64,000 nt of DNA from Pseudomonadota bacterium (GTDB taxonomy: Bacteria > Pseudomonadota > Gammaproteobacteria > Burkholderiales > Rhodocyclaceae), in the NCBI GenBank assembly GCA_018241695.1, contig JAFEDH010000030.1, positions 62,001-126,000 of the forward strand, in the 5' to 3' direction. The translations under genes and the position numbers were made by a program. Below, piece by piece: positions 16,569-43,030 of the stretch (the first letter of the stretch is position 1; each line of letters begins with the position of its first letter). The notes under the pieces are model-generated. The model did no database searches. It saw only the letters and a list, made by a program, of their open reading frames with translations, and was not told the DNA's origin.

Positions 16569-16590
16569 GCCGCACCACGAAAGGCATTTC

Positions 16591-19452: not shown

Positions 19453-19468
19453 TTCCGGGAGTTCCGCG

Positions 19469-20266: not shown

Positions 20267-20379
20267 TCCGCTGCGGGAAATATGAACCGGATCTTTCTTT
20301 TGCAGTTGATAACATTCGAGAGCCGAGGCGTCCGGCTTGCGACGCCTGTTGCACAGATAGAGGAATAGAGGAGACGAAG

Positions 20380-28900: not shown

Positions 28901-29380
28901 AAAGGTGTCGCTCTGATGGGCGATGGTGGAGGATTTCGCGCCATGGTCGTCGCCGGCCAGCAGCAGCACGCCGCCATGCTTGGCGCTGCCGGCGTAATTG
29001 CCGTGCTTGATGGCATCACCCGAACGGTCCACGCCGGGGCCTTTGCCATACCAGAGGGCAAATACGCCGTCATAGGGGGATTTTCCGAACTGGGCCACCT
29101 GCTGGCTGCCCCAGACGGCGGTAGCCGCCAGATCCTCGTTCAGGCCGGGCTGAAAGCGGACATGGTGTTCGTCCAGATGTACGCGCGCCTGGGCCAGGGC
29201 AAAGTCGTAGGTGCCCAGCGGCGAGCCGGTATAGCCTGAAATGTAGCCAGCGGTGTTGAGTCCCGCCATCACGTCGCGCTGGCGCTGCATCAGGGGGAGG
29301 CGCACGAGCGCCTGGGCGCCGCTGAGATAGACCCGTCCGGTACGGGCGGTGTACTTGTCTTCGAGAGTGACCTGCTTCAT
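25907..29380 (-). CDS. Fused indolepyruvate-type 2-oxoacid:ferredoxin oxidoreductase
   Basis: A 1157-aa single-chain enzyme of the indolepyruvate ferredoxin oxidoreductase type that converts a 2-oxoacid to acyl-CoA and CO2 with thiamine diphosphate and Fe-S clusters. Domains in order: N-terminal pyrimidine-binding half; a middle region with FCAGCPHNT and the ThDP-binding GIGCHGLA / GDGTYTHSG segments; a ferredoxin-like stretch with CEGCGDCGVQSNC and a second Cys cluster (CNDDYSC, then KGYCPS); and a gamma domain (VAGIGGSGVVTLGALMGMAA). Start at 29380 places it 4 bases after the VOC gene stop; upstream in-frame starts overlap that gene. It is an uncommon member of an apparently aerobic, oxygenase-containing operon. 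Confidence 0.9.
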   Translation of the reverse strand: MKQVTLEDKYTARTGRVYLSGAQALVRLPLMQRQRDVMAGLNTAGYISGYTGSPLGTYDFALAQARVHLDEHHVRFQPGLNEDLAATAVWGSQQVAQFGKSPYDGVFALWYGKGPGVDRSGDAIKHGNYAGSAKHGGVLLLAGDDHGAKSSTIAHQSDTFFIHAGMPYLNPANVQEYLDYGLYGIALSRFSGCWVGFKCITDTVEASASVDIDPDRVRIVEPDDFTLPPQGLNLRAGVLPIESERRLYQERLEAVKAFVRANHLDRVMLDAPVRRIALVATGKAYLDLRQALEELGLDDAALAGLGVVIYKVAVPWPLEPRGILDLAGSVEEILVVEEKRGIIEDQIARLLINLPVAPRLVGKHDETGAVLISEVGELSAAALTPVLARRLLPLAATLGRTLEIRPGCAPAQPAGAGQAPSLTRMPAFCAGCPHNTSTNIPAGSVAMGGIGCHGLALWLPERRTLALSHMGGEGAMWMGIAPFTETRHIFQNMGDGTYTHSGLLAIRAVVASGANITYKILVNDAIAMTGGQPIAGKAAVAYIVRQLESIGVGQVAVVTDAPDKYADRGDFPPATEIFHRDRLDEVQRRLREIPGCTALVYDQVCATEKRRRRKRGKWATAPRHIVINPAVCEGCGDCGVQSNCIALEPLETPQGRKRQVNQSVCNDDYSCIKGYCPSFVSLYGAKPRRIESTTTDGSAVDAVIARLVDPPPASLDQPCNILVAGIGGSGVVTLGALMGMAAHLEGKACSVLDITGLAQRNGAVTSHIRLAARPEQIHSSRIGVGSADLILGCDIVVATAADVLTRISPQRTRITVNNHVAPTSAFARNPDMALSAAPMLETLSASVGSDQISELDATQIAMKGFGDTVAGNLFLLGHAFQQGGIPLSRAALEQAIEINGIAVDTNRRAFAWGRAFAHTPALVEQILAKPATRVRTQTLDERIAFHSKELEAYQNAAYARRYQALVDAVRRAEAALGSEVLTTTVARHLFKLMAYKDEYEVARLHTRSGFIESLQRDFEGDFRITFHMAPPILPRNKKTGRIDKREFGPWMLHVLRLLASLRFLRGTPFDPFGRAAHRRFERNLIVTYESVMRKLLPKLGPDTLEAAIAIAAFPEHVRGYDTIKEENARTTLAALQQHIAALGLPGDSLAALSGDHA

Positions 29381-29384
29381 GGGT

Positions 29385-29789
29385 TCAGGGTTGCTGGCAC
29401 ATGACTTCGATGGCATTGCCATCCGGATCCTCGATCACCGCCACGGCCACGCCGGGCCGCAGATCGGTGTAATCCTGCTGCACCGTGACACCGGCTGACT
29501 TCCAGCCGGTCAGGTCGCTTTGCAGATCGGCCACCTGGATACTCATGGCACGCAGGCCGAGGGCCGCAAGGATGGGGCCGGGCAGTGCGGGCGGCAGCGC
29601 TGCGGTGCCGGCTGGCGCGACCAGCCGGATCAGGCTCTGGCCACAGGCCATGCGGACGATGCGGGCGATATCGGGAATGTCCACCTCGCCTTGCACCGGA
29701 AAGCCGAGCCGGTCGCGATAAAAGGCCACCATGTCGGCTTGCCGGCGTGTCACCAGCACGATGTCGATGGCGGATTTTTTGAGTTCCAT
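29385..29789 (-). CDS. VOC-superfamily (glyoxalase/bleomycin-resistance fold) protein
   Basis: Single-domain vicinal-oxygen-chelate protein of 134 aa: beta-alpha-beta repeat beginning DIVLVTRRQADMVAFYRDRLGFPV, and ending in the metal-ligand Glu segment VIEDPDGNAIEVM. Members act as epimerases, lyases or dioxygenases on CoA esters and other small molecules. Touches the DUF35 gene (no gap) and lies 4 bases before the oxidoreductase gene. By context a methylmalonyl-CoA-epimerase-like or isomerase role on a pathway intermediate is possible but unproven. Confidence 0.78.
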   Translation of the reverse strand: MELKKSAIDIVLVTRRQADMVAFYRDRLGFPVQGEVDIPDIARIVRMACGQSLIRLVAPAGTAALPPALPGPILAALGLRAMSIQVADLQSDLTGWKSAGVTVQQDYTDLRPGVAVAVIEDPDGNAIEVMCQQP

Positions 29790-30242
29790 TCAATTCTCCT
29801 TGGATGAGATCCTGATCCAGCAGGGCAGGGTGACGTCCTCCGTCAGCTGGCGGAAGCACAGTCGCACCCGGTCGCCGATGGCGATTGCGGTATCGCGGCT
29901 GGCACCGATATCGGCATCGGGTGTGGTCAGCAGATTGCCGATCATGCGTATGCCTGGCACGCCTTCCGGCTCAACGACCACCACGCGATAGGGTGCGAGG
30001 GCCTGATAGGCCGGCAGCAGGGGCGGGTGCACGGTGACGAAAGACCAGATGCGGCCCGACTCTCCGGCCGGCACCCATGCCAGGGGGCCATGGCAGCCGG
30101 GACAGAACACCCGTGGTGGAAAGTGATGGCTGGCGCAGGCCTCGCAGTGCTGCACCAGCAGGCGACCCTGTCGGGTGGCAGCCCAGAAGGCGGCGTCGAC
30201 CGGATTGTCGGTCACGGGCAGTATCCACGCTTCAGCAGCCAT
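29790..30242 (-). CDS. DUF35 (Zn-ribbon + OB-fold) acyl-CoA-binding protein
   Basis: A 150-aa stand-alone DUF35 protein. The N-terminal rubredoxin-like zinc ribbon has two Cys pairs (CEACASHHFPPRVFCPGC) and is followed by an OB-fold (GRIWSFVTVH, then YRVVVVEPEGVPGIRMIG). DUF35 proteins are obligate partners of thiolase-superfamily enzymes; in the cholesterol pathway the DUF35 domain of ChsH2 binds the aldolase Ltp2. Here it is one base downstream of an Ltp2-like, Cys-less thiolase, so the two probably form one enzyme. Confidence 0.87.
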   Translation of the reverse strand: MAAEAWILPVTDNPVDAAFWAATRQGRLLVQHCEACASHHFPPRVFCPGCHGPLAWVPAGESGRIWSFVTVHPPLLPAYQALAPYRVVVVEPEGVPGIRMIGNLLTTPDADIGASRDTAIAIGDRVRLCFRQLTEDVTLPCWIRISSKEN

Positions 30243-30243: not shown

Positions 30244-31389
30244 TCAGTTCCTCAGCAGCAAGGCGCTGGTGGGTGTGGCATCGCAGGAAGTCACCAGGCA
30301 GGTGGCGGCACCGGCCACCTGGTTTTGCGCTGTGCCGCGCAGCTGGCGCACGCCTTCGGTGATCAGGTTGAAGCCGTGGATATAGGCTTCGGAAAGGCTG
30401 CCGCCGGCGGTGTTGACCGGCAGGCGTCCCCCGTTCACGGCAATGCCGCCCGATTCGACAAACGCGGCGGCTTCCCCCCGGCCACACAAGCCATAGGCTT
30501 CCAGGGAAAACAGGATCAGGGGCGAGAAGGCGTCGTAGATCTGCGCAACCTGGATATCGGCAGGACCGATGTCGGAACCCTGCCAGAGCTTGCGTGCGGC
30601 TACCGCGGATGCGCTGGCGAAAGGATCGGCACCGAATACGTCGGGCATGTTCTGCTGGCCCCGGGCCAGCCCTTGCGACCAGGCATGGATGTAGGCCGGG
30701 CGCTGGCGGCAGTCCTGCGCGTGGTCGCGGCGGGCCAGCACCACAGCCACCGCGCCATCGGACTCCAGGCAGTTGTCGAACAGGCACAGGGGATCGCTGA
30801 TCATGCGTGCCGCCTGGTATTCGGCGAGGCTGAGGGGACGGTTGTGCATCATGGCGCGGGGATTGTTCAGCGCGTGGTTGCGCAGGGTCACCGCGATGTG
30901 CCCCAGTGTGTCGCGACTGGCGCCATGGTCGTGGAAATAGCGCCGGGCCAGGAGCGCCACTTCATCCACCGGGCGCAGCAGGCCCCAGGGCTGTGACCAT
31001 TTCCAGTGATTGTTGAGCCGTGGCGGCGTCTGCGCCCAGACCCGTGAAGCCTTGCCGCTGCGCTTGCGCGCACGCCACACCACCGCCACATTGGCCTGCC
31101 CGGTGGCTATGGCCATTGCCGCCTGGCCGACGATGCCGCAGCCGGCGCCTCCACCGTAATGGACGCGGCTGAAAAAGGAAAGATCACCGAAGCCCAGGTT
31201 GCGGGCATATTCGAATTCTGGCGTTTCTTCCATGGTGTAGCAGGCCACGCCGTCCACTTCGCCGGCGGCAATGCCGGCATCCTGCAAGGCATTGCGGATG
31301 GCGCTGCAGCCCAGTTCCAGCTCGCTTTCGGTAAAGCCCTTGCCGAAGGACGTTTCACCTATGCCGACGATGGCAACCTGATCCTTCAT
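30244..31389 (-). CDS. Thiolase-superfamily protein lacking the catalytic Cys (Ltp2-like aldolase candidate)
   Basis: A 381-aa thiolase-fold protein. Where thiolases have the nucleophilic Cys (VNNNCATG in SCP2) this has VHYGGGAG, so the residue is Gly80. The GHPxGATG His segment is replaced by SEAYIHGF with Tyr336 at that position, and another Tyr lies in IYDAF (Tyr285). Ltp2, the retro-aldolase that removes the last side-chain unit in bacterial cholesterol catabolism, also lacks thiolase residues and has been reported to use two tyrosines about 50 residues apart (from memory). With the DUF35 gene directly downstream, C-C cleavage of a 3-hydroxyacyl-CoA is the best prediction. Overlaps the crotonase gene by 4 bases. 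Confidence 0.82.
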   Translation of the reverse strand: MKDQVAIVGIGETSFGKGFTESELELGCSAIRNALQDAGIAAGEVDGVACYTMEETPEFEYARNLGFGDLSFFSRVHYGGGAGCGIVGQAAMAIATGQANVAVVWRARKRSGKASRVWAQTPPRLNNHWKWSQPWGLLRPVDEVALLARRYFHDHGASRDTLGHIAVTLRNHALNNPRAMMHNRPLSLAEYQAARMISDPLCLFDNCLESDGAVAVVLARRDHAQDCRQRPAYIHAWSQGLARGQQNMPDVFGADPFASASAVAARKLWQGSDIGPADIQVAQIYDAFSPLILFSLEAYGLCGRGEAAAFVESGGIAVNGGRLPVNTAGGSLSEAYIHGFNLITEGVRQLRGTAQNQVAGAATCLVTSCDATPTSALLLRN

Positions 31390-32129
31390 GCCGGCAGATC
31401 CCGGGGCGGGTAGGCGCCGGCCAGGGCCAGGGTAGCCACGCGCGCTTCACGGGCCAGGGCGGCATCGAAGCCGGAATGTGCGCCGTGGCGCAGGGCTTCG
31501 CGCATTTCCACCAGTACGGCCGGATCGATCCGGTTGAGGCGCTCGCAGAGAGTCCGTACGGCAGGCTGCAATTCATTCTCCGCCAGCACCCGGTTCACCA
31601 GGCCGGCGTCCAGCGCCGCATCGGCATCGATGGGCTCGCCCAGCATCAGCCATTCGGTGGCCTTGCGCACACCGACACGGCGCGGCAGGTGATAGGTGGC
31701 ACCCAGTCCGGGAGGAATGTTGAGGCTGGCGAAGGGAAGCACGAAGCGGGCGCTGCGCGCGGCAAGGAGCAGATCGAAGCCGAGAATCGCGGTGACGCCG
31801 ATACCTGCGGCGGGGCCATTGATCGCGGCGATGGTGGGTTTGGGATAGTGATGGATGAGCGGGGCGAATTCGCGCAGGAAGGGCGCATCGCCCAGCCGCC
31901 GCAGGCGCTCCGGATCGTTCTGCACCTCGCGGTCGGCACCGGCGCAAAAGCCGCGGCCCGCGCCGGTCAGCACCACCGATCTGACCGCCGGGTTGTCGCG
32001 ATGTGCAAGAAAGGTGGCGAGCAGCGCATCGCCCATTTCCGGCGTGAACGCATTGAGCTTGTCGGGCCGGTTGAGAATCACCCAGGCGGTGCCCGCTTCC
32101 TGGCGATGGATGAGGATGTCGTCGCTCAT
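31386..32129 (-). CDS. Enoyl-CoA hydratase/isomerase (crotonase family)
   Basis: A 247-aa crotonase. Oxyanion segments GRGFCAGADREVQ and INGPAAGIGVTAILGFDLLL are present; the third conserved segment is FASLNIPPGLGATYHLPRRVG. I start it at the ATG at 32129, which overlaps the stop of the upstream crotonase by 4 bases; the longer open frame to 32723 only shadows that gene. One of two adjacent, clearly different crotonases, so two separate hydration, isomerisation or ring-cleavage steps are likely. Confidence 0.9.
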   Translation of the reverse strand: MSDDILIHRQEAGTAWVILNRPDKLNAFTPEMGDALLATFLAHRDNPAVRSVVLTGAGRGFCAGADREVQNDPERLRRLGDAPFLREFAPLIHHYPKPTIAAINGPAAGIGVTAILGFDLLLAARSARFVLPFASLNIPPGLGATYHLPRRVGVRKATEWLMLGEPIDADAALDAGLVNRVLAENELQPAVRTLCERLNRIDPAVLVEMREALRHGAHSGFDAALAREARVATLALAGAYPPRDLPA

Positions 32130-32908
32130 TTCTGCCCCGGCTTTTTCCATTGTGGCGGGCGCTTTTCGGCGAAGGCCCGCGGTCCCTCGGAAAAATCGGG
32201 ATGTTGGGTATGGCCGATGATGAGTTGCCAGGCATTTTCCAGTGAAGCCTGCAAGCCCTTGTCCAGCGACTGCCAGATCGCCTGTTTGGTGCGCGCCAGC
32301 GCGGCGGGGGAATGGCGCGCGATGGCGCTGGCCAGTTCGAGTGCCCGCGCCTGCAGGCCGTCGGCGGGCACCACCTCGCTGACCAGCCCCATGCGTTCCG
32401 CCAGCACGGCACTCACCCGTTCGGCGCCACCCATCAGCGCCATGCGCAGGACATGGCCCAGGGGGATGCGCCGTGCGAGCATCACCGGCTCCAGTCCGGA
32501 GACGAAACCCACCGCGACATGGGGGTCCGAAAACCATGCGTTGTCGGCGGCAATGACGATATCGGCATCGGCAACGAAATGCAGCCCGCCTCCCACGGCC
32601 ATGCCGTTGACGGCGCAGATCACCGGCTTGCTCACCTGGTTCTGCAGGGGGGTCCAGCGAATTGAATCGATGCTCTGCGCCGTATCCGTTTCGGGTGGTT
32701 CGAGCAGATCGGCACCGGTGCACAGGGCGCGCTGGCCGGCACCGGTGAAGATTGCCACCCGCGCCTCCGGATCGGTTTCGAATCGCTGCCAGACCCGCGG
32801 CAACTCCAGGCTCATTGCCTGGTTGATGGCGTTGAGCCGGTCGGGCCGGTTGAGGACGATCCGGGCAATGCCGTCGGTGACGCTGTATTCCAGGGTGGTG
32901 AAGCTCAT
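32126..32908 (-). CDS. Enoyl-CoA hydratase/isomerase (crotonase family)
   Basis: A 260-aa crotonase. It begins with FTTLEYSVTDGIARIVLNRP, has the oxyanion segments ALCTGADLLEPP and VNGMAVGGGLHFVADADIVI, and ends with the typical AFAEKRPPQWKKPG. The start at 32908 overlaps the thiolase stop by 4 bases; a start at 32938 would run deeper into that gene. In some crotonases ring opening of a cyclic beta-keto acyl-CoA replaces hydration, which is possible here given the extradiol dioxygenase in the operon. Confidence 0.9.
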   Translation of the reverse strand: MSFTTLEYSVTDGIARIVLNRPDRLNAINQAMSLELPRVWQRFETDPEARVAIFTGAGQRALCTGADLLEPPETDTAQSIDSIRWTPLQNQVSKPVICAVNGMAVGGGLHFVADADIVIAADNAWFSDPHVAVGFVSGLEPVMLARRIPLGHVLRMALMGGAERVSAVLAERMGLVSEVVPADGLQARALELASAIARHSPAALARTKQAIWQSLDKGLQASLENAWQLIIGHTQHPDFSEGPRAFAEKRPPQWKKPGQK

Positions 32909-34056
32909 TTCTCCATTCCCAGAATGGTGATGGCGCAACCGGTGGGGAATCCGCCGATGTTATGGGTCAGCGCTGTGACCGGACGGCGCCTGAGGTTGCG
33001 CTCGCCCGCCTCGCCACGCATCTGGCGGATGTTTTCGTAGAGCATGCGCACCCCGGTCGCGCCCGTGGGGTGGCCGAACGATTTCAGCCCGCCGTCGGTG
33101 TTCACCGGCAGTTCGCCATCGAATGCGAAGGTGCCGGCCGTGATGTGTTCCTTCGCCGCCCCCTTGGCGCACAGGCCCAGATCCTCGTAGGCCAGAAGCT
33201 CGGTCAGCGTGAAGCAGTCGTGCACCTGGCACAGTTCGATCTGGCGGAAGGGGTCGCTGATGCCGGCCATCCGGTAGGCTTCGGCGGCGGCATTTTCCGT
33301 CGGCTTCCAGCGCAGGAAATCGTGATCGGGATCGGTATGCGGATTGGCGGCGCTACCGCTGGCGACCGCCTTTACCCAGACCGGATCTTTGGGGTAGCTG
33401 CGTGCATGCGCGGGCGAGCTGATGATGACCGCCGCCGCGCCGTCGGACTGGCCGGCACAGTCGAACAGGCCGAAGGGCCAGGCGATCATGCGCGCCTTGA
33501 GCACATCGTCCACCGTGACCACCTTCTTGATGAAGGACTTGGGCGCATGGGCGCCATTGGCGTGGTTTTTCACCGCGATACGGGCGAGATCCTCGCGTCC
33601 CGCGCCATATTTTTTGAAGTAGGGCGCGGCGCACAGGGCGAACCAGGCCGCCGGTGTGCCGGGCAGATCGCGCACGCCACGTATGGTCACGGAAGGCCCG
33701 GAGACGCCGCGATCCTTGGGTTTGTCGTAGCCGACGACCAGCACAGTGTCATAGACTCCGGCGGCCACCGCCATGACCCCGGCGCGGAAGGCCTCGGTGC
33801 CGGTGGCGCAGTAGTTGGAGACCGCGGTCATGGGTTTGTAGAGCTTGAGGGCTTCGCTCACTTCCACCGGGCCGAGCTGGGAATAGAGCGAGCCACAGTA
33901 GATGGCATCGATCTGGCGCCGTGGATCCTCGATGCCGGCATCGGCGTAGGCTTCGAGAACGGCGTCGACGATCATGTCCTCGGGGCCTTGATCCCAGTTC
34001 TCGCCGAACTTGCAGCAGCCCGCGCCAACCACGGCGGCCTTGTTGCGCAATGTCAT
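32905..34056 (-). CDS. Thiolase (SCP2/SCPx-type acyltransferase)
   Basis: A 383-aa thiolase of the lipid-transfer/SCP2 group. Unlike the other thiolase-like protein in this operon it keeps the catalytic Cys83 (SNYCATGTEAF) and His329 (FGHPTGATG). Probably performs CoA-dependent cleavage of a bulky 3-ketoacyl-CoA. It overlaps by 4 bases the gene for an HMG-CoA-synthase-like/DUF35 fusion. Archaeal acetoacetyl-CoA thiolase and HMG-CoA synthase are known to form a complex bridged by a DUF35 protein, so a similar assembly is plausible here. Confidence 0.9.
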   Translation of the reverse strand: MTLRNKAAVVGAGCCKFGENWDQGPEDMIVDAVLEAYADAGIEDPRRQIDAIYCGSLYSQLGPVEVSEALKLYKPMTAVSNYCATGTEAFRAGVMAVAAGVYDTVLVVGYDKPKDRGVSGPSVTIRGVRDLPGTPAAWFALCAAPYFKKYGAGREDLARIAVKNHANGAHAPKSFIKKVVTVDDVLKARMIAWPFGLFDCAGQSDGAAAVIISSPAHARSYPKDPVWVKAVASGSAANPHTDPDHDFLRWKPTENAAAEAYRMAGISDPFRQIELCQVHDCFTLTELLAYEDLGLCAKGAAKEHITAGTFAFDGELPVNTDGGLKSFGHPTGATGVRMLYENIRQMRGEAGERNLRRRPVTALTHNIGGFPTGCAITILGMEK

Positions 34057-35471
34057 GGCAGCTTGCCTCGCACAGGGGTGACTTTCCAGAAATAGTTGGG
34101 GCGCCTGCCCACCTGATGAATGCGGCGGAAGGTGAATTCCACTTCCGTTCCGATCCCGATTTCGTCCGCATCCGCATCGGTGGCCTGCAGATAGAGGCGC
34201 GGTCCGCCCGCCACCTCGGTTACGGTGATCACCGTGGGTGGACTCGGGTTGGGAAAAAATGCGTCGCGTGAATAGGTAATCACCGATCCATGGCGATCAG
34301 CGTAGCGGACGGGCTGGAAGTGATCGGCACAGCCGCAGCGCACGCAGATCCGGCCCTTGGGGAACTGATGGGTGCCGCACTGGCACACCTGGCCTTCCAG
34401 CGAGAGATTGGCATCGCGCTCCCGATAATGCGCCGTGGCGGAATTGCCCGGTTCGCCGCCGGGCTCGAATTCGGTGGCCAGCAGTTGTCGTGCGCTCAGA
34501 TACCAGGCATGGCTCACGACCCGGCCGAGGGCCTCCTGGCCAGCAAGAGAGCGAGCAGGCGGCGGCGGGGCGACATCGAGCTCGATCATGGCGGCATCGG
34601 CACCATCACCATAATTGGCCAGCAGCAGGCGTTCGCCGGCTTGCGCCTCCTCAAGGCCGGCACACAGCTGCAGCAGGGCGAACGATGCCCCGGTACAGCC
34701 GATGCGGCCCGGCCAGTCGCGTCCGATCACACGTTCGAGCGGCAGATGATGGGCTGCCGCAATTTCGCGGAGGCTGCGTGAATCGGGCGCGTACAGGGCG
34801 ATGCGGTCGATGCGCTGCAGGTTGCCGCCTTCCGCTTTTGCCATCGCATCCAGGGCACGACCGATCTGATCCTTGTAGCCATGGTCGAGGATGAAGCGGT
34901 TTTCCCAGCCATGGACGAAGCGCTCGCCGGCACCACGCCAGACATCCAGCATTTCGTTGCTCAACTGGACCGGAACGCCAATACGGCCGAAACCGCCACG
35001 ATTGCCCAGCAGCAGGGCCGCGCCGGCATCGCCGAATTCCAGTTCGGCAGCATCGCCGGGCGTCATCTGGCGCACATCGCCTGCGATCACCAGGCAGGAA
35101 GCGATGCGGCCGCTGGCCACCAGGGCGCCCGCGGCATGCAGCGCCTGGGTGCCGGAACGGGTGCTGGCGGTAATGTCGAACGTCATGACGTCATCGCGCA
35201 ATCCCAGGGTTTTGGCGGCAATCGCGGCGCCCTGCTTTTCACCATAGGGTGCGCTGGTGGTGGCGAAGATGAGCGCGTCGATCTCGCTGCGATCCATGTT
35301 GCCAGCGCCGGCCAGAGCATTGCGGGCCGCGGCGACGGCCAGGGTCAGGCTGTCCTCGTCCGGGCCGGCGAGGGTGCGCGCTGTGCTGCCCTTGCGCCCG
35401 AGGCTGGCCGCCGTGAGGCGGTGGATGGGCAGATAGGCGCCATAAGCGATGATGCGGGCATCCATGGTCAT
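34053..35471 (-). CDS. HMG-CoA-synthase/KAS III-like protein fused to DUF35, catalytic Cys replaced
   Basis: A 472-aa two-domain protein. Residues 1 to about 340 have the KAS III/HMG-CoA synthase thiolase fold (IIAYGAYLPIHR, later FGDAGAALLLG). Residues about 345-472 are a DUF35 module with zinc-ribbon cysteines 363, 365, 376 and 379 and an OB-fold. At the nucleophile position the sequence is DITASTRSG, with Thr104 where homologues have Cys (DVTNACYGG). By eye the His and Asn segments are also altered: APDS where HQAN is expected and GCTG where GNTG is expected. It may be a scaffold or an enzyme with new chemistry. Four-base overlaps on both sides tie it to the SDR and the thiolase. Confidence 0.83.
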   Translation of the reverse strand: MTMDARIIAYGAYLPIHRLTAASLGRKGSTARTLAGPDEDSLTLAVAAARNALAGAGNMDRSEIDALIFATTSAPYGEKQGAAIAAKTLGLRDDVMTFDITASTRSGTQALHAAGALVASGRIASCLVIAGDVRQMTPGDAAELEFGDAGAALLLGNRGGFGRIGVPVQLSNEMLDVWRGAGERFVHGWENRFILDHGYKDQIGRALDAMAKAEGGNLQRIDRIALYAPDSRSLREIAAAHHLPLERVIGRDWPGRIGCTGASFALLQLCAGLEEAQAGERLLLANYGDGADAAMIELDVAPPPPARSLAGQEALGRVVSHAWYLSARQLLATEFEPGGEPGNSATAHYRERDANLSLEGQVCQCGTHQFPKGRICVRCGCADHFQPVRYADRHGSVITYSRDAFFPNPSPPTVITVTEVAGGPRLYLQATDADADEIGIGTEVEFTFRRIHQVGRRPNYFWKVTPVRGKLP

Positions 35472-36379
35472 GCTTCCGCTCCGCGCGGGCGCACACCATC
35501 GTGAAAGGGATAGGGCTTGCCCAGGATGCCGAAGGCGCCGAATTCCTGCGGCAGGTGCAGATTGAAATAGCGCACGATTTCCTCCAGCGTCCAGCCGCCG
35601 GGGCGGATCAGGGTTTTGCCGTAATGAGGCTGCACCATATGGGAAATGCGCTCACCGCCAGTGCCGAAGATCTGGCCGCTGACGTGGCCGGCCAGATGGC
35701 TGCAGAGGAACACGACCATCGGTCCATTGAGTGCGGGATCGATCCAGTCGGCGACAGCGGCGGGCTTGTCACCCTTGTAAGTGTCGGACATGCCGGTCGA
35801 ACCGAGGGGGCCGATGGCGTTGACGCGAATGCCTTCCTTCGCCAGTTCGGTGGCCCAGGTGTAGGTCATGGAGGCGATGGCACCCTTGGCCGCGCTATAG
35901 GCGGTCTGGCCGAAACTGCCGAAGTGGGCGCCAGAAGTGGTATTGACGATGGCACCGCCGTGGCCCTGTGTCTTCATGCGCAGCGCCGCGGCCTGGGCGC
36001 ACCAGAAGGTGCCTTTGACATGTACGCGCCAGACCGCATCGAATTCCTCGTCGGTGCACTTGAGAAAGCTGCGGTCGCGCAGATTGCCGGCGTTGTTGAC
36101 CAGGATGTCGATGGCGCCAAAGGCACTGACACAATCGGCGATCAAACGCTCGGCGCCGGCGCGGCTGCCGATATCGGCCTGGCTGCCGATCGCCTTGCCT
36201 CCGGCGGCCTCGATTTCGTGGACAACCGTTGCGGCCCGTTCCGCATCCAGGTCGTTGACCATCACGCTGGCGCCGGCGGCGGCCAGATGCAGGCAGTGCC
36301 CGCGGCCGATGCCCTGACCGCCGCCGGTGACCACGGCGGCCTTTCCGGCGAGAAGCCGGGTGAGATCGAGATCGTTCAT
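35468..36379 (-). CDS. SDR, HSD17B4/MFE-2-type (3R)-hydroxyacyl-CoA dehydrogenase candidate
   Basis: A 303-aa SDR with TGGGQGIGRG near residue 18, NNAG at 95-98, and Tyr161-xxx-Lys165. The segment RDRSFLKCTDEEFDAVWRVHVKGTF resembles the SDR domain of peroxisomal multifunctional enzyme type 2, which oxidises (3R)-hydroxyacyl-CoA. That fits the MaoC-type hydratases upstream, which make the R isomer. Start at 36379 overlaps the acyl-CoA dehydrogenase stop by 4 bases; the open frame continues to 36976 as a shadow of that gene. Substrate specificity is inference. Confidence 0.85.
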   Translation of the reverse strand: MNDLDLTRLLAGKAAVVTGGGQGIGRGHCLHLAAAGASVMVNDLDAERAATVVHEIEAAGGKAIGSQADIGSRAGAERLIADCVSAFGAIDILVNNAGNLRDRSFLKCTDEEFDAVWRVHVKGTFWCAQAAALRMKTQGHGGAIVNTTSGAHFGSFGQTAYSAAKGAIASMTYTWATELAKEGIRVNAIGPLGSTGMSDTYKGDKPAAVADWIDPALNGPMVVFLCSHLAGHVSGQIFGTGGERISHMVQPHYGKTLIRPGGWTLEEIVRYFNLHLPQEFGAFGILGKPYPFHDGVRPRGAEA

Positions 36380-37500
36380 GGAGTCTCCAGGGGGCCGAAC
36401 ATGCGTTCGGCGATACGGTCCTCCAGCGTCGCAGGATCGCCGTTGAATAGTTGCAGATGCTTGGCGCGGCGGAAGAAAAGCTGGGGATCGGCTTCGAGGG
36501 TGAAGCCGAAGCCGCCGTGCACCTGGATGGAAACCGCCGATGCCTTGCGCAGCACCGCAGTGTTGAACAGTTTGGCCTGATTCGCAGCCTGGGCGTTGTC
36601 GATGCCTGTATCGGCCTGCCAAGCGGCGTAATAGGCGAAGCTGCGGGCCGCGTCCACCTCTGTTGCCATCTCTGCAAGATAGTGGGCAATCGCCTGGAAT
36701 GCGCCGATCGGCTTGCCGAACTGCTCCCGTTCCTTGGCGTAGTTCACCGACATCTCCTGCACCGCCTGGGCTGCTCCGGCAGCAAAGGCGGCCTGGAGCA
36801 TGCCACCCTGATCGAGCACGGACTCCCAGGTCGACCAGAAGGTGCCGCCCGCGAGGCTTCCTTGCACCGGAGCGGCTTCCATACGTATCTCGCACAACCC
36901 GTCGTTGCCCAGGCTGGGCTGCGGGGAAATGGTCACGCCCGGTCCGCGCGGATCGAGCAGGAACCCTGCCGGACAACCCTCGATATCGCGTGCGATGACG
37001 ATGATCAGATCCGCATCACTGGCGAAAGGAACCAGATGCTTGATGCCGTCGATTACCCGCTGATCCGCATGCAGCCTGGCTTCGGCCCGGATGCCGCTCG
37101 GGGTGGTGCTGCGTCCCGGTTCATCGATGGCGATCGTGGCGATGCACGTGCCACTGGCCAGTGCGGGCAGCCATCGTCGGCGCAAGGCGGCATCACCACA
37201 GGTGCCGATCAGGCGCGCCGCCAGATAGGCACTGACGAAATGGGGTGAGCAGGCCAGTCCGCGGCCCAGTTCTTCGTAGAGCACCGCAGCGCCGACCTGG
37301 TCGAGAGCGATGCCGCCATCCTCCCCGGAAATGAAAATGCCGCAGAAACCGGCTTCGCCCAGGGCGTTCCAGATTTCGGGGGCATAGCCCTTGCCCGCGG
37401 CTTCGGCGCGGCGCAGGGCGGGGAGGGATTGAGCCTTCCGGCACAGGGCGCGAACGCTCTCCCGCAGCAGAATCTGGTCTTCGGAGAAATCAAAATCCAT
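36376..37500 (-). CDS. Acyl-CoA dehydrogenase
   Basis: FAD-dependent acyl-CoA dehydrogenase of 374 aa: MDFDFSEDQILLRESVRALC at the N-terminus, KEREQFGKPIGAFQAIAHYLA and IQVHGGFGFTLEADPQLFF in the C-terminal domain. The middle domain lacks the canonical TEPxxGSD segment, as in the short subunit at 13546. It could pair with the acyl-CoA dehydrogenase at 40562 in a heteromeric enzyme, although that gene is in the neighbouring operon. Starts 12 bases after the extradiol dioxygenase stop. Confidence 0.9.
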   Translation of the reverse strand: MDFDFSEDQILLRESVRALCRKAQSLPALRRAEAAGKGYAPEIWNALGEAGFCGIFISGEDGGIALDQVGAAVLYEELGRGLACSPHFVSAYLAARLIGTCGDAALRRRWLPALASGTCIATIAIDEPGRSTTPSGIRAEARLHADQRVIDGIKHLVPFASDADLIIVIARDIEGCPAGFLLDPRGPGVTISPQPSLGNDGLCEIRMEAAPVQGSLAGGTFWSTWESVLDQGGMLQAAFAAGAAQAVQEMSVNYAKEREQFGKPIGAFQAIAHYLAEMATEVDAARSFAYYAAWQADTGIDNAQAANQAKLFNTAVLRKASAVSIQVHGGFGFTLEADPQLFFRRAKHLQLFNGDPATLEDRIAERMFGPLETP

Positions 37501-37512: not shown

Positions 37513-38499
37513 TCAGCGCTGGCCAGTGTTGTCGTCCTGCAGTCCGGATGCCATTTCCGCAATCGCCTCGACGGTCAGGCCCTTGTGGCCCCAGACATCT
37601 CCCTCGCAGAACTGGTTGGGAACCCAGTGCTCGTCGATCTGTACCGGATCGCAACCGATTTCCACATCGAAGCCGGAGGGGCCGCGCATGTAGAAGGACA
37701 GCATGTGGTCATTGGTGTGGCGGCCGAGGGTGCTGGTGATCGTCATACCTGCCTTTTGCACCCGGTCCATGATGCAGCCGACCTGATCGATACCGGTCAC
37801 CTCGAACATGACGTGATGCAGCCCCCTGATGTCTCCCACCTTGACCATGCCGACACTGTGGTGGCGCTGGTTGCAATGAAGGAACTGGATCGACATGCCT
37901 GCCTCGGCATTGATCACCAGGTAGTCGCTCAGGCGCATGCCCAGTGCGCGGGTGTAATACTCGTAGGTCGTATCGATATCGTCGACGAACAGGTTCACGT
38001 GGCCGAATCCCACTTTCCCGGCCACGAAGCTGATTCCCAGCGGGGAGTGGAAACGGTAATCGCGGGTGGGGCCGACATAGATTTCGATCGCGTTGCCCAT
38101 CGGGTCGCGGCTGTGTGCCAGATGACGCACACTGCGCGCGGCGGCTTCGGCCGGCGTTCCGTTCCTGACCGGCGCACCGGTGGTCTTCAGGCGTTCCAGC
38201 GTGGTACGGAAGCCTTCCTCGTCGCCGGCATCGAAGCCGAGATAGCGCAATCCTTCCGCACCGGGATGAACGGCAACCCGCCATTGGTGATCGTCCAGCT
38301 TCAGATAGACCGAGCCGTCCGGGCCGATGCCGGAACCCTGGCTGGCCGGACCGGGATTGTCGGGATCGCCGGGCATGCCCCAGCTTTCTCCGGGCCATGC
38401 ACGCGCCGGCATCATGCCCAGAATGCGGGTCCCGTACTGCAGCCATTGCTCCGGTGCGTGGGCACCGATGCCGATATATCCCAGGGCTGAAACGCTCAT
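37513..38499 (-). CDS. Type I extradiol ring-cleavage dioxygenase (BphC/HsaC-like)
   Basis: Fe(II)-dependent meta-cleavage of a catechol-type ring; 328 aa with two VOC domains. Predicted metal ligands are His167 (GFGHVNLF), His229 (LHHVMFEV) and Glu280 (FDVEIG), with the second-shell His-His of QRHHSVG and Tyr270. The C-terminal STLGRHTNDHMLSFYM and the following Gly-Phe-Asp-Val-Glu block strongly resemble HsaC of steroid ring degradation and BphC of biphenyl degradation. It is roughly 30 residues longer than HsaC, with a Gly/Pro-rich insert at residues 31-62. First gene of the twelve-gene operon, behind an operator at 38517-38530. Confidence 0.92.
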   Translation of the reverse strand: MSVSALGYIGIGAHAPEQWLQYGTRILGMMPARAWPGESWGMPGDPDNPGPASQGSGIGPDGSVYLKLDDHQWRVAVHPGAEGLRYLGFDAGDEEGFRTTLERLKTTGAPVRNGTPAEAAARSVRHLAHSRDPMGNAIEIYVGPTRDYRFHSPLGISFVAGKVGFGHVNLFVDDIDTTYEYYTRALGMRLSDYLVINAEAGMSIQFLHCNQRHHSVGMVKVGDIRGLHHVMFEVTGIDQVGCIMDRVQKAGMTITSTLGRHTNDHMLSFYMRGPSGFDVEIGCDPVQIDEHWVPNQFCEGDVWGHKGLTVEAIAEMASGLQDDNTGQR

Positions 38500-38516
38500 G
38501 AAGGCTCCTGTTCGTT

Positions 38517-38530
38517 ACGGTACGAAACGT
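38517..38530. promoter_or_regulatory. Predicted TetR operator upstream of the extradiol operon
   Basis: On the - strand the sequence is ACGTTTCGTACCGT, 18-31 bases upstream of the dioxygenase start. It matches the palindrome ACGTTTCGAAACGT upstream of the P450 operon at 12 of 14 positions. The 84-base gap 38500-38583 also follows directly after the TetR gene, so this is the promoter region of the downstream operon. Regulation by that TetR is inference from position and shared sequence. Confidence 0.6.
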
Positions 38531-38583
38531 TTTGTCTCGAAAATAGGGTCAAAAAAATCATGGCCGGGCAGGACGTGGATCGC

Positions 38584-39174
38584 CTAGGCCTGGTGGTAAC
38601 GGATGGCTTCGGCAACAGCCTTCCGGATATAGCTCTTGCCCGGCTTCGCACCCGAGAGCATGAAGCGCATCACTACCGGGCCCATGATGGCGTCGAGAAC
38701 GAATTCGATATCCGTGCCGGTACTCAGCTCGCCACGGGCGATGCCGCGCCGGATGGCGTTGCGGATCGGTTCGCGGCGGGCATCGAAGACGGGAACGATG
38801 AGTTTTGTCAATTCCGGATTGTGCGCACTCTCGCCCAGCAGGCTGGGAAAGGCTTTGCCCAGGGGCGTGCTGGCCATGAGTTCGACAAACCGGTTCACCA
38901 GGGTTTCCAGATCCTTGCCGACATTGCCACGATCCACGTCGCTCAGGGGCGGTGTCCGCTCGAAGGCGGCAACGGTCAGGTGCAGTTTGTTCGGCCAGCG
39001 CCGGTAGATGGTGGCTTTGCTGGTGCCCGAACGCGCCGCGACTTCTTCCACGCTCATGGCGGTGAAACCGCGTTCCGCCAGGAGATCCAGCGTGGTGTCG
39101 AGAATCGCCTGGTGGGATTCGCTGCTACGGGGGCGGCCCGGAGGTTTGCGCGCGACGGCTCGGGGTGGATTCAT
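38584..39174 (-). CDS. TetR/AcrR-family transcriptional regulator
   Basis: A 196-aa repressor-type protein. The GRPRSS segment precedes the helix-turn-helix at residues about 15-60 (AILDTTLDLLAERG, then VEEVAARSGTSKATIYRRWPNK). The C-terminal ligand-binding domain resembles the TetR_C group common in actinobacterial AcrR-like proteins. It lies at the end of the P450/MaoC operon (25 bases after the MaoC gene) and directly upstream of the extradiol operon. Both operons carry the same ACGTTTCG-centred operator, so it is the likely local regulator and autoregulates as part of its own operon. Confidence 0.88.
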   Translation of the reverse strand: MNPPRAVARKPPGRPRSSESHQAILDTTLDLLAERGFTAMSVEEVAARSGTSKATIYRRWPNKLHLTVAAFERTPPLSDVDRGNVGKDLETLVNRFVELMASTPLGKAFPSLLGESAHNPELTKLIVPVFDARREPIRNAIRRGIARGELSTGTDIEFVLDAIMGPVVMRFMLSGAKPGKSYIRKAVAEAIRYHQA

Positions 39175-39199: not shown

Positions 39200-39664
39200 T
39201 CACGAGTATCTTAAGACGAATTCGGCTGCCATGAGGGGCTGCTCCGGATCGTCGGTGAATGCCTGGTATTCACGGATCAGGTCGGTGCCCTTGTCGCCCA
39301 CGGTGATCGCGTTCAGGCGGGTGCGACAGCGCACAGCCGATCCGGCCCGTAGCGGGGCGAGGAAGCGCACCCGGTCAAGCCCGCGGTTGACTGCCTGGCG
39401 ATGCCCCGCGATCTGCCATGACTGCCGCGGAGAAAGGCGTGGCAACAGGCTCAGGAGCAGCATGCCATGGGCGACCGGTGCACCGAAGGGACTTTCGCGG
39501 AGGCAGCGCTCCACATCCACATGCAGCCAGTTTCGATCCCCCGAGAGTTCGGCGAATGTATCGATGCTTGCCTGATCGACCGTCAGGACAGGCCCGGGGG
39601 CAGACCATAGGCCGAGGTGTTTTTGCAGGGCGGCTGCATCGCGGAAATCGATGGATTCGGTCAT
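39200..39664 (-). CDS. MaoC-like (R)-specific hydratase
   Basis: A 154-aa hot-dog-fold protein. The hydratase-2 motif is present as FAELSGDRNWLHVD (Asp-x4-His) followed by FGAPVAHGMLLLSLL, the conserved helix with His-Gly. Hydrates a trans-2-enoyl-CoA to (3R)-hydroxyacyl-CoA. It overlaps the next MaoC-like gene by 4 bases; three consecutive genes here are of this fold. A single-domain protein of this type works as a homodimer. Confidence 0.87.
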   Translation of the reverse strand: MTESIDFRDAAALQKHLGLWSAPGPVLTVDQASIDTFAELSGDRNWLHVDVERCLRESPFGAPVAHGMLLLSLLPRLSPRQSWQIAGHRQAVNRGLDRVRFLAPLRAGSAVRCRTRLNAITVGDKGTDLIREYQAFTDDPEQPLMAAEFVLRYS

Positions 39665-40086
39665 TTTGCATCTCCGGCAGGCAGGAAGGCTTCAACCTCA
39701 CCTTCCGTCACTGTGCGATCGTCGCGCTGGAAGCTGATGGCAAGGGTGAGGGCCGTGCCTGCCACGGTATCGATTCGGGCAGAGACCGTCCCGCGGATGA
39801 TCAATGCATCCCCCGGGCAGACCGGGGCCTTCATGCGGCAACGCAGACGTCGTACCCGTGCCGACGGGCCCAGGGTATCGGTGGCATAACGGCTGAGCAG
39901 GCCCTGCAGGGTCGGTGTGTTCATGATCACATCGGGCAGGCCGGCGGCGAGAGCGTGGCGGTGATCATGATGCTGGGGCGCCAGATCCCGCGCAGCGAAA
40001 GCGGCACCGATCACCATTCGGGCCGTCACGGCAACGCTGAGTTGGGGCAGGGTTTCACCCAAAACAGGCAAGGATGCGTGGCTCAT
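39661..40086 (-). CDS. MaoC-like dehydratase, catalytic half
   Basis: A 141-aa hot-dog-fold protein. An Asp-x4-His pair is present (ARDLAPQHHD), but the following helix reads DVIMNTPTLQGLLSRY without the usual His-Gly. It overlaps both neighbours by 4 bases. With the N-terminal-type MaoC protein encoded just upstream it probably makes a split double-hot-dog hydratase, comparable to the ChsH1-ChsH2 hydratase of cholesterol side-chain degradation. Confidence 0.78.
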   Translation of the reverse strand: MSHASLPVLGETLPQLSVAVTARMVIGAAFAARDLAPQHHDHRHALAAGLPDVIMNTPTLQGLLSRYATDTLGPSARVRRLRCRMKAPVCPGDALIIRGTVSARIDTVAGTALTLAISFQRDDRTVTEGEVEAFLPAGDAK

Positions 40087-40559
40087 GTGCGATAGGCAAA
40101 AAACCGGATGCGTTCGGTGGCTACGACATCACCATCTTCGTTCCGGTAATGCAGTTCGATGGCCCAGCGGCGGCCACTGCGGCCACGCCGCTCTTCTTCC
40201 GGCCCCAGCTCGGCCAGACGTTGCTCCACCATGATGCGGTCCCCCGGATGCACATCGGCATGCAGTTCAAGTTCGTTCTCTTCCACCAGGGCATGGGGAT
40301 AGCCGAGGATCTCCTTGAGCCGGTGATGCAGTTCCACCGGGCGTGTGCGGGTTTCCCCGTCGGGTACCGGGCCGTCGTCAGGGCGGGTCCAGGCGGTCAC
40401 CATGGCGGGCGGGCAGATCGGTGGCAAGGACGAGTCGTTCCGGTAGCGCGGGTGCGTATCCGCGATGGCGCAGAGAAAGTTCTGCCAGACCTGGGCCGAG
40501 GCTTCCACGGCGGCAGGATCCACGATACGCAAAGTGAAAAGATCCGCTTCGGCGCTCAT
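40083..40559 (-). CDS. MaoC N-terminal-type / FAS1-like dehydratase domain protein
   Basis: A 158-aa protein of the MaoC_dehydrat_N (FAS1-like dehydratase region) type. It has an N-terminal helix, PPAMVTAWTRPDD, then HHRLKEILGYPHALVEENELELHADVHPGD and RRWAIELHYRNEDGDVVATER. Such domains have a hot-dog fold but lack the catalytic Asp-His and act with a catalytic MaoC half, here probably the 39661 gene with which it overlaps by 4 bases. Separated from the acyl-CoA dehydrogenase by 2 bases. Confidence 0.8.
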   Translation of the reverse strand: MSAEADLFTLRIVDPAAVEASAQVWQNFLCAIADTHPRYRNDSSLPPICPPAMVTAWTRPDDGPVPDGETRTRPVELHHRLKEILGYPHALVEENELELHADVHPGDRIMVEQRLAELGPEEERRGRSGRRWAIELHYRNEDGDVVATERIRFFAYRT

Positions 40560-40561
40560 GA

Positions 40562-41752
40562 TCAGTTTTGTAGGGGCAGCCCCAGGCCACGCCGGGCAAT
40601 GACGTTTTTCTGAATTTCGGAAGTACCGCCGCCGATGGTGTCGAGGGGAGTCGCCCGATAGAGGTGTTCCCAGTGGCCCTCCGCGATGGCATGAGGAGCT
40701 TCACAACGCAGCAGGGCCTGCGGGCCGAGAATATCGAGTGCCGCATCGGCGAGCCGCTTGCCCAGTTCCGAGCTGTAGAGCTTGAACTTGGCCGCTTCCA
40801 CACTGGGAATGGCGCCACTGGCGGCAGCCATCAGAACCCGTCGCTGGAGCAGGGTGGCTGCCTCCACTTCGGTACCGAGGCGGGCCAGGCGCCGGCGGAT
40901 CTGCACATCCTGGCTCAGGGCAACGCCGTCGCGTGTGATTTTTCGTACCGACTCGCACAGCATGTCGAATGCCTTGCGCAGCGGGGAGATGGTGTAGATG
41001 GAAAACCGTTCGTAATCGAGGGCTTCGCAGATGTAGGTCCATCCGTGATCGATCTCGCCCACGACATAGTCGTCGGAGACGAACACATCATCGAAGAAAA
41101 CGGCATTGGTGCGATGGTCGCCCATGGTATGGATCGGCGTGATCGTGAGTCCGGGCTGTGTGAGCGGGAGCAGAAACAGGCTGATGCCCTTGTGTTTGGG
41201 TGCCTCCGGATTGGTGCGGGCAGCTACCCAGTACCAGTCGGCGAAATGGGCCGAGGTATTGAAGGTTTTCTGGCCGTTGAGCCGCCAGCCGCCTTCGCTG
41301 CGGGTCGCCTTGAGCTGGAGCGATGCGAGATCCGATCCGGCGCCGGGTTCGGTGTACCCCAGCGCGAACTCGACTTCGGCCTTGAGAATGCGGGGCAGGA
41401 ATTCCTGTTTCAGTTTTTCGGAGCCATGGCGCATCAGCGTCTTGCCGATGATGCCGCAGCCCTTGCCGATCAGGGGGGCGCCGAATTGAGCCAGGGCCTC
41501 GTTGGCCAGGTAATCGTAGATGCCCGGCATGTCCTGGCCGCCATACTTGCCAGGCCAGGACATGCCGATGTAGCCCTCTTCGGCGAGAGTGCGGTTGAAC
41601 TCCCTTCGGGCGGGAGTATCGGCCAGTTGCGAATCGGCCCAACGACCGAAGTCGAGCGCATCGGCACCGTAGGGCTTGTGCTGCTGTGCCTCCAGAAATT
41701 CCGTTATCCGGTGCTGGAACTGCTGCTCTTCTTCGCTGAAGCTGAAATTCAT
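40562..41752 (-). CDS. Acyl-CoA dehydrogenase
   Basis: A 396-aa acyl-CoA dehydrogenase with a complete FAD/substrate region: GYTEPGAGSDLASLQLKA and NGQKTFNTSAHFADWYWVAART in the middle domain, and TIGGGTSEIQKNVIARRGLGLP near the C-terminus. N-terminal MNFSFSEEEQQFQHRITEFL is typical. It follows the P450 gene after 18 bases. The order P450, acyl-CoA dehydrogenase, MaoC proteins parallels the mycobacterial igr cholesterol side-chain operon. Confidence 0.92.
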   Translation of the reverse strand: MNFSFSEEEQQFQHRITEFLEAQQHKPYGADALDFGRWADSQLADTPARREFNRTLAEEGYIGMSWPGKYGGQDMPGIYDYLANEALAQFGAPLIGKGCGIIGKTLMRHGSEKLKQEFLPRILKAEVEFALGYTEPGAGSDLASLQLKATRSEGGWRLNGQKTFNTSAHFADWYWVAARTNPEAPKHKGISLFLLPLTQPGLTITPIHTMGDHRTNAVFFDDVFVSDDYVVGEIDHGWTYICEALDYERFSIYTISPLRKAFDMLCESVRKITRDGVALSQDVQIRRRLARLGTEVEAATLLQRRVLMAAASGAIPSVEAAKFKLYSSELGKRLADAALDILGPQALLRCEAPHAIAEGHWEHLYRATPLDTIGGGTSEIQKNVIARRGLGLPLQN

Positions 41753-41770
41753 GGTGTATTCCGCGCAGAC

Positions 41771-42973
41771 TCAGGCTTTGAGTGTGAAGCTCAGTGGAAC
41801 GCTGACAAATCCCGAAAGATGCTCTCCGTAGGAATTTTCACAGCGATCGTAATTCACCTCGAAGTCGGTGATATCCCTGAACACTTCTTCGAGGATGGCG
41901 ATGCCGGCTTCGATGGCGACGAATTTGCCAAGACAGAAATGGGAACCGATACCGAAGGTCATGTTCGGATCTCCGTCTTCGCGCAGGCAGTTGAACTGGT
42001 CGGGATCGCTGAACCGCTTCGCATCGCGGTTGGCCGAAGCGTAGATGAAAAGAAGATTCTGCCCGGCACGAATCGCCTGACCTCCAACCTCGAAATCCTC
42101 ACGTGCACGGCGCGCCAGCATGTTGGTCGGCTGCCGGTATCTTGCGGCCTCGAAAAATGCGCGGCGCAGCAGGCCGTTATCAGAGAGAACCGCGGCTTTC
42201 TGTGCGGGATTCTGTCCAAGATGATAGAAGGTAGCGGCAATCACCATCGGGGTGGTTTCCGATCCAAGCACAAGCAGGCTGAACAGGTACCACACCAGTT
42301 CTTCATCCGTCAGGCGATGGCCATCGATCTCGGCCTCCAGATAGGCTTTGGTGAAACCCTCCGCCCTGGCAGGATCGGCTCTCAGCCGGCCTACGAACTC
42401 ATGCAGATAGGCCATCAGGGCGCCGCCTGCGGATTGATTGCGCTCCGAGTTCCCTCCGACCTGATTCGGATTCCGGTGCAGCATGTCATCGATCAGGGAA
42501 CGCATGTGTTCGGAGTCGTCGCGGGGCAACCCGAGCTTGTAGCCCGCGTTGATGCAGAAGAACCGGTTGGCGAGATCGCGATAGGCATCCATCCTGCCCT
42601 GTTTCCTGAGCGGCTCCCATAGCTCTCGGGCCAGCGCACGATAACGCGGCACCTGGGCGGCAACCGCATCCGGAGTGAAATCGCCCGCGATGATGCCGCG
42701 CCATGCCTTGTGCGCCGGCCCATTCATGGTGGCGAAGGTGTGCGGGATGAATTCATTGAGGAGCAATTGTCCCGGAGTCTGGCCATGGCTGAAGTCAAGG
42801 CATTTTTCCTTGAGGCTCGCCGCCTTGACGTCATCAAACAGGGTAAAGGCCCAGGCATTGTATTTGGGCAGAAAATGGGGGGCACCCTCTGCGCGCAATG
42901 CGCGGTACAGCTCATGGGGGTCGCTCATCGCGGCGTGGGAATACGGGTCGTACTGGCTTGCACATGCAGTCAT
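41771..42973 (-). CDS. Cytochrome P450
   Basis: A 400-aa soluble bacterial P450 that hydroxylates an unactivated carbon using O2 and reduced ferredoxin. The haem ligand is Cys347 in FGIGSHFCLGKF; the I-helix oxygen-activation segment is LLVLGSETTP; the K-helix ExxR is EAARYRQP. I start it at the ATG at 42973 with AAAGGAG upstream; an in-frame upstream ATG at 43006 adds 11 unlikely residues and would start inside the operator region. No ferredoxin or reductase gene is adjacent. First gene of its operon. The role may be terminal side-chain oxidation, as for CYP125, but the P450 family is not assigned. Confidence 0.93.
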   Translation of the reverse strand: MTACASQYDPYSHAAMSDPHELYRALRAEGAPHFLPKYNAWAFTLFDDVKAASLKEKCLDFSHGQTPGQLLLNEFIPHTFATMNGPAHKAWRGIIAGDFTPDAVAAQVPRYRALARELWEPLRKQGRMDAYRDLANRFFCINAGYKLGLPRDDSEHMRSLIDDMLHRNPNQVGGNSERNQSAGGALMAYLHEFVGRLRADPARAEGFTKAYLEAEIDGHRLTDEELVWYLFSLLVLGSETTPMVIAATFYHLGQNPAQKAAVLSDNGLLRRAFFEAARYRQPTNMLARRAREDFEVGGQAIRAGQNLLFIYASANRDAKRFSDPDQFNCLREDGDPNMTFGIGSHFCLGKFVAIEAGIAILEEVFRDITDFEVNYDRCENSYGEHLSGFVSVPLSFTLKA

Positions 42974-43016
42974 GTCACGCTCCTTTTGATCCGGCTCCAA
43001 AACCATACGATACGAT

Positions 43017-43030
43017 ACGTTTCGAAACGT
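43017..43030. promoter_or_regulatory. Predicted TetR operator upstream of the P450 operon (perfect palindrome)
   Basis: ACGTTTCGAAACGT is a perfect 14-bp palindrome, 44-57 bases upstream of the P450 start and partly overlapping a tandem ATACG repeat. Its near copy is upstream of the extradiol operon. Size and symmetry suit a TetR dimer, and the TetR gene at 38584 lies within the operon this site would control. Confidence 0.65.

Follow-up and report, generated by a model that had tools for sequence, protein, structure and literature searches.

The window analysed here (64,000 nucleotides, positions 62001-126000 of contig C23 in a source genome of 2.86 Mb that is 97.5% complete) contains two neighbouring minus-strand operons, one of five genes headed by a cytochrome P450 gene (42973-39200) and one headed by an extradiol dioxygenase gene (38499-25907). 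Homology, phylogeny, gene context and a shared promoter element together suggest that this region is very probably an edc/aed-type cluster for aerobic 4,5-seco estrogen catabolism, carried as a rearranged copy by a gammaproteobacterium, with the reactions assigned from the published genetics of Caenibius (Novosphingobium) tardaugens and Rhodococcus. The aspartate kinase, which is 71% identical to that of Pseudomonas, 70% to those of Acinetobacter and Neisseria and 57% to that of Azospirillum, fits a host in the Gammaproteobacteria of GTDB (former Betaproteobacteria included) and disfavours the Alphaproteobacteria; a search for a 16S gene that could place the host found none. The 'probable Gammaproteobacterium' of the original prediction, a reading made from the DNA letters alone, holds for the class in that sense.

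All five open reading frames (ORFs) of the P450 operon are present and are tightly packed or overlapping. The ORFs and their Pfam matches agree with the order originally read there, namely P450, acyl-CoA dehydrogenase (ACAD), FAS1-type MaoC (MaoC-N), MaoC and MaoC. Apart from the last MaoC, the encoded proteins are most closely related, among annotated sequences, to those of the edc/aed (4,5-seco) clusters that Novosphingobium sp. ES2-1 and Prescottella equi carry. The ACAD, which matches three Pfam ACAD domains, is 57% identical to ES2-1 RS20325, 52% to the aed ACAD 25360 and about 61-62% to its relatives in two further genomes of the class (G506 and G894), and it falls in the edc clade with support of 100/99, separate from igr-type ACADs. 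The FAS1-type protein is 38% identical to ES2-1 RS20320 and 40% to one half of a fused aed MaoC, and the adjoining MaoC is 42% identical to RS20315 and 41% to the other half. The last MaoC is placed in the edc set by position, since its closest ES2-1 relative (RS20415, 44%) is the MaoC of the cluster for 3aα-H-4α(3'-propanoate)-7aβ-methylhexahydro-1,5-indanedione (HIP).

The P450 gives a Pfam p450 match of 67 bits, and the motifs FGIGSHFCLG and GSETT can be read intact in its sequence. Two things favour 42973 over 43006 as the probable start: the operator-like palindrome sits at 43007-43030, and the length then matches that of the ES2-1 relative (397 residues). When 72,556 plasmids were searched for the nearest annotated relatives, the P450 was closest to IM701_RS20240 on plasmid p3 of the estradiol degrader ES2-1 (60.8%), followed by AedA on the P. 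equi plasmid (37%), with the other matches listed at about 32% or less; identity to the canonical EdcA of ES2-1 (RS20390) is 50%. The nearest plasmid relatives of the dioxygenase, the ACAD at 40562 and the Ltp2 likewise lie on p3 (58%, 57% and 61%). A search of genome contigs with the P450 led to a single Novosphingobium metagenome-assembled genome (MAG). In the P450 tree the protein clusters with the EdcA of ES2-1 and the AedA of P. equi (100/98, or 100/99 with the copies from G506, G894 and G980 added); inside this clade it is sister to a second ES2-1 P450 and not to the canonical EdcA. The CYP125 sequences, to which it is 26-29% identical, form a clade of their own in these trees (98/97 and 97/95), and the window P450 lies outside it.

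The dioxygenase is 58% identical to ES2-1 RS20245, 41% to AedB and 37% to ES2-1 EdcB. It groups with EdcB, AedB, the second ES2-1 dioxygenase and the G506 copy (100/98), apart from HsaC/BphC and from the genome's own HsaC relative. Residues H167, H229 and E280, which occupy the metal-ligand positions of the family, are invariant. The original label 'HsaC-like' is right at the level of the HsaC/BphC superfamily, which the protein matches below both curated cut-offs, but an HsaC identity is ruled out by the tree; the genome's HsaC relative sits on contig C12. This P450 and this dioxygenase are the sole EdcA/EdcB-type pair found in the genome.

The dioxygenase operon holds, besides the EdcB-type gene, an EdcC-type oxidoreductase of the indolepyruvate:ferredoxin oxidoreductase (IOR) family and the remaining A/B-ring β-oxidation set. 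The latter (ACAD, short-chain dehydrogenase/reductase (SDR), HMG-CoA synthase-like protein with an OB domain (HMGS-OB), thiolase, crotonases, Ltp2 and DUF35) is 33-72% identical to its ES2-1 counterparts and has the same gene order. The IOR is 57% identical to the copies in the G506 and G894 clusters and scores 1582 bits against NF009589; two more IOR-family proteins are encoded elsewhere in the genome (C24:1482-4907, 51% identical to the window copy, and C15:111743-115138, 46%). The Ltp2 groups with edc Ltp proteins (99/98), igr-type Ltp proteins standing apart, and its structural match, PDB 6ok1, is a lipid-transfer protein, presumably the Ltp2 of T. curvata. The original prediction had placed Ltp2 and DUF35 equivalents in the adjacent operon, which is borne out, and the two operons appear to be co-regulated.

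The edc set of C. tardaugens comprises edcA, a chsH2-like gene, a lipid-transfer protein, crotonases, thiolase, HMGS, SDR and ACAD, together with edcB, VOC, edcC, a further ACAD, two MaoC proteins and a TonB receptor; EdcA, EdcB, EdcC and EdcT were studied by deletion, and EdcA also in vitro (PMC7793797). The operon pair on ES2-1 p3 has the content published for C. tardaugens, and the p3 locus is tied to the literature by PMC8700777, which calls its TetR, IM701_20395, a homologue of EdcR. The window shares with both organisms the content of operons A and B (P450, extradiol dioxygenase, VOC, IOR, ACADs, MaoC pair, SDR, HMGS-OB, thiolase, crotonases, Ltp2, DUF35 and TetR). It differs in arrangement: P450, ACAD and MaoC form one operon, the dioxygenase heads the operon A set followed by VOC and IOR, and both operons run in the same direction with the TetR gene between them, whereas in C. 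tardaugens and ES2-1 the two operons diverge. In addition, its P450/dioxygenase pair corresponds to the second one of ES2-1. The aed cluster on the plasmid of P. equi DSSKP-R-001 has relatives of the same kind (AedA/AedB, both ACADs, FAS1/MaoC, Ltp, DUF35 and VOC), but its FAS1 and MaoC are fused and no IOR is listed in the stretch examined, which is consistent with the reported AedG/H/J route (PMC12507874).

A shared promoter element also links the two operons. The 18-mer upstream of the dioxygenase gene is the element upstream of the P450 gene with 3 mismatches, a likeness equalled by 0 of 150 shuffled pairs (10, 1 and 2 of 150 at word lengths of 14, 16 and 20). The 14-mer TACGAAACGTTTCG, with two mismatches allowed, occurs within the window only at these two sites against 0.13 expected, a figure that overstates the case since the pattern was picked after the sites had been seen; the shuffled pairs give the fairer test. 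The 14-mer is absent from the C23 flanks and from the stretches of C12 and C24 examined.

On this basis a pathway can be proposed. Steroid would be imported by a TonB receptor, estrone would be hydroxylated at C4 by the P450, and the dioxygenase would then open ring A at the C4-C5 bond. The resulting 2-oxo acid may be converted to a CoA ester through oxidative decarboxylation by the oxidoreductase at 25907. The A/B-ring remnant would be degraded to HIP by the ACADs, MaoC hydratases, SDR, thiolase, crotonase-type hydratases, HMG-CoA-synthase-like protein and Ltp2/DUF35 aldolase, with the ACAD of the five-gene operon as a probable desaturase and the FAS1-type/MaoC pair as a probable hydratase; the order of these β-oxidation steps and their exact substrates are likewise putative. 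Rings C and D would be finished by the HIP cluster on contig C24, and the TetR may repress both operons through their common operator.

Genes for the rest of such a pathway are found elsewhere in the genome. The HIP cluster (C24:30649-44862) encodes relatives of FadD3, thiolase, SDR, ACAD, MaoC, crotonase and IpdAB that are 34-67% identical to those of ES2-1. Five KshA_C oxygenases are present (C22:163109, C24:45560, C19:95605, C20:29298 and C21:59852), two of them at contig ends. The genes beside the C12 HsaC relative read as HsaA/HsaB-like, and together with the five oxygenases they suggest that steroids are also degraded by the 9,10-seco route.

Several points weigh against estrogen as the substrate or against the individual assignments. 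The P450 and dioxygenase are nearer to the second, uncharacterised ES2-1 pair (61% and 58%) than to the canonical EdcA and EdcB of that strain (50% and 37%). The DUF35, VOC and TetR matches to ES2-1 are just 33-37%, and neither of the two TonB receptors, which are 26-28% identical to one ES2-1 receptor, can be identified as EdcT. A search for the published EdcR palindrome did not find it. Finally, ES2-1 served as the proxy for C. tardaugens in the sequence comparisons.

The first of these points leads to the alternative that survives best. The P450 and dioxygenase may, with their relatives in ES2-1 and MAG STE_139, form a second EdcA/EdcB branch that acts on a different aromatic steroid and is coupled to an igr-like side-chain module, a proposal we regard as doubtful; if true, 4,5-seco chemistry would reach beyond C18 estrogens. 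The corresponding account of the whole cluster, in which the 4,5-seco enzymes attack another steroid with an aromatic A ring, such as one whose C17 side chain is still in place, and the nearby module removes that side chain, is in our view unlikely. It draws on the grouping of the pair with RS20240 and RS20245, which adjoin an igr-like module on p3, a matching module being present on the contig studied here. Against it, the pair is the only one of its type in the genome and stands inside an otherwise ordinary edc set, and side-chain modules may serve other steroids. The second ES2-1 pair itself lies at L030:19989-22195 (NZ_CP063448 118024-120230), by an IS256 transposase and away from the edc operons; no paper on its function was found in the literature searched.

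The actual igr-like module is at C23:47485-54405 (L009:5485-12405, L009 being the flank C23:42001-62000 directly left of the window), 7.6-14.5 kb from the window, and has no adjacent P450. It runs ChsH2 (FAS1, zinc-ribbon and OB/DUF35; L009:5485-6561), ACAD, MaoC, Ltp2, ACAD and acyl-CoA ligase, and is 40-65% identical to ES2-1 RS20250-20275, which on p3 adjoin the second P450/dioxygenase pair. The module is complete, and it is the one that the original description fits.

That these enzymes serve to break down a polycyclic phenol or terpenoid other than a steroid is very improbable: extradiol dioxygenases and CoA enzymes are indeed widely reused, but known estrogen degraders carry the entire set together, and KshA-type oxygenases, an HsaC relative and the steroid HIP cluster are all present in this genome. 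The abietane diterpenoid (dit) cluster, considered for its P450, dioxygenase and thiolase, was dropped on the edc match, dit sequences not having been compared.

The original prediction had likened the five-gene operon to the mycobacterial igr operon (cyp125, chsE1/E2, chsH1/H2, ltp2). The enzyme classes are alike, and the chemistry of the steps (desaturation, hydration, retro-aldol) is probably alike, but here the P450 is of another family, there is one ACAD, of the edc clade, in place of a ChsE1/ChsE2 pair, the protein at 40083-40559 is a FAS1 region without DUF35 and not a fused ChsH2, and the Ltp2 is not of side-chain type. The parallel gave way to the edc/aed match in sequence and context. 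As for the phylogeny against CYP125/142 that had been proposed as a check, the P450 falls outside CYP125 but within another steroid P450 family, and the outcome originally named as refuting is half borne out. Membership of CYP142 was rejected on identity, CYP142 reaching only 102 bits in the PDB search and being absent from the tree. A mycobacterial-type igr function, with the P450 as CYP125 and ACAD/MaoC as ChsE/ChsH removing the last three cholesterol side-chain carbons, has the identical enzyme classes, a weak structure match of the FAS1-type protein to ChsH1/ChsH2 (E 5e-4) and the Ltp2 match to 6ok1 in its favour, yet is largely refuted by the trees and by the genuine igr-like set elsewhere, and we consider it extremely improbable. 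The broader idea of a rearranged isoprenoid- or steroid-degrading system is supported as regards steroids; the igr-like side-chain reading is not supported.

Table 1. Features of the edc/aed-type region and its surroundings (window coordinates; RS numbers are ES2-1 loci)
Feature	Position	Strand	Basis or remark
SnoaL/NTF2-like protein	22093..22722	+	66% RS20310, which adjoins MaoC RS20315 (edc-cluster-linked in ES2-1)
IOR family, EdcC-type	25907..29422	-	53% RS20330
Small VOC protein	29385..29789	-	33% RS20335; also adjoins IOR in G506 and G894
DUF35/OB_ChsH2_C partner of Ltp2	29790..30242	-	Pfam zf-ChsH2 and OB_ChsH2_C; 35% RS20385
Ltp2-type aldolase (edc type)	30244..31389	-	61% RS20380; PDB 6ok1 E 1e-89
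Enoyl-CoA hydratase family (crotonase)	31386..32228	-	38% RS20370
Enoyl-CoA hydratase family (crotonase)	32126..32938	-	55% RS20365
Thiolase	32905..34056	-	72% RS20360; tree 100/100
HMG-CoA synthase-like, C-terminal OB domain (HMGS-OB)	34053..35471	-	42% RS20355
SDR, 3-hydroxyacyl-CoA dehydrogenase type	35468..36379	-	66% RS20350
ACAD, beta-type (edc operon A)	36376..37500	-	33% RS20345; 33% aed ACAD 25350; 41% G506/G894
Extradiol dioxygenase, EdcB/AedB-type	37513..38499	-	Identity, tree and ligand residues
Operator-like element TACGGTACGAAACGTTTTG	38512..38536	.	Upstream of EdcB-type dioxygenase gene
TetR regulator, EdcR-like	38584..39174	-	37% TetR RS20395; gene between both operons
Second MaoC hydratase	39200..39664	-	Canonical SGDxNxxH motif; Pfam MaoC 65 bits
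MaoC hydratase partner	39661..40086	-	Pfam MaoC 26.9 bits, slightly below cut-off 27
FAS1-type (MaoC-N) hydratase partner	40083..40559	-	Pfam FAS1_DH_region 24 bits (cut-off 22)
ACAD, edc operon B type, alpha-type steroid ACAD	40562..41752	-	Identity and tree
Cytochrome P450, EdcA/AedA-type (estrone 4-hydroxylase-like)	41771..42973	-	Identity and tree; ORF open up to ATG 43006
Operator-like palindrome ACGTTTCGAAACGT	43007..43030	.	Upstream of P450; counterpart at 38517-38534
TonB-dependent receptor, divergent from P450	43151..45814	+	Pfam TonB barrel and plug; 26% RS20500; long ORF, true start probably later

The receptor beside the P450 gene is EdcT-like by position only. Further left, a second TonB receptor (22887-25220, minus strand) and a pyrroloquinoline quinone alcohol dehydrogenase (2775-4889, plus strand) are 66% and 44% identical to genes near the Ltp2/DUF35 pair of the congener G375. 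Positions 8413-21138 (plus strand) hold a run of CoA enzymes (thiolase, FadB-like protein, GMC oxidoreductase, two ACADs, CoA-transferase, acyl-CoA synthetase, crotonase and SDR) without a clear ES2-1 counterpart. The gene at 16531-17778, originally called AMACR-like, is a family III CoA-transferase; the curated models that it matches best are those for mesaconate, succinate-glutarate and formyl-CoA transferases, every one below cut-off, and AMACR is not specifically supported.

In a sample of 369 genomes of the class, the source genome and G506 alone have such a dioxygenase at E 1e-60 or better, and among 300 drawn from the order only the source genome has such a P450 at E 1e-90; G894 and G980, of the family of G506, have related P450s. 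Two congeners lack a close dioxygenase, and one of them, G375, keeps from the window edc operons the Ltp2 (79%) and DUF35 (53%) in the stretch examined. In G894 the IOR, VOC, DUF35, Ltp, dioxygenase, HMGS-OB, thiolase, FAS1, MaoC, P450 and both ACADs lie inside about 33 kb; in G506 most edc-like genes are on its contig C2, and the dioxygenase is on C1 with DUF35 and SDR. These clusters, from another order of the same class, resemble that of the window in IOR (57%), Ltp (59-61%), FAS1, MaoC, P450 and dioxygenase, but their gene order is unlike it, their P450s are only 34-37% identical, and the G506 dioxygenase is on a separate contig.

In the literature searched, which did not extend to subscription papers, proven 4,5-seco clusters come from sphingomonads and actinobacteria (PMC12507874), the aed cluster occurring also in Rhodococcus sp. 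B50. Differently arranged estrogen clusters are mentioned for Achromobacter xylosoxidans and Denitratisoma oestradiolicum (PMC8700777), and Comamonas testosteroni has been proposed from transcriptomics; the present finding therefore extends a known cluster type, in a lineage from which few reports exist, and is not the first hint beyond sphingomonads and actinobacteria. Because gene order differs among the sources, the constant core (P450, dioxygenase, ACAD, FAS1/MaoC and Ltp2/DUF35) points to the key enzymes of the poorly known A/B-ring β-oxidation. Overall, a complete rearranged copy here, together with the copies in another order, would widen the range of bacteria that may clear environmental estrogens and would provide sequence markers that sphingomonad-based searches would overlook.

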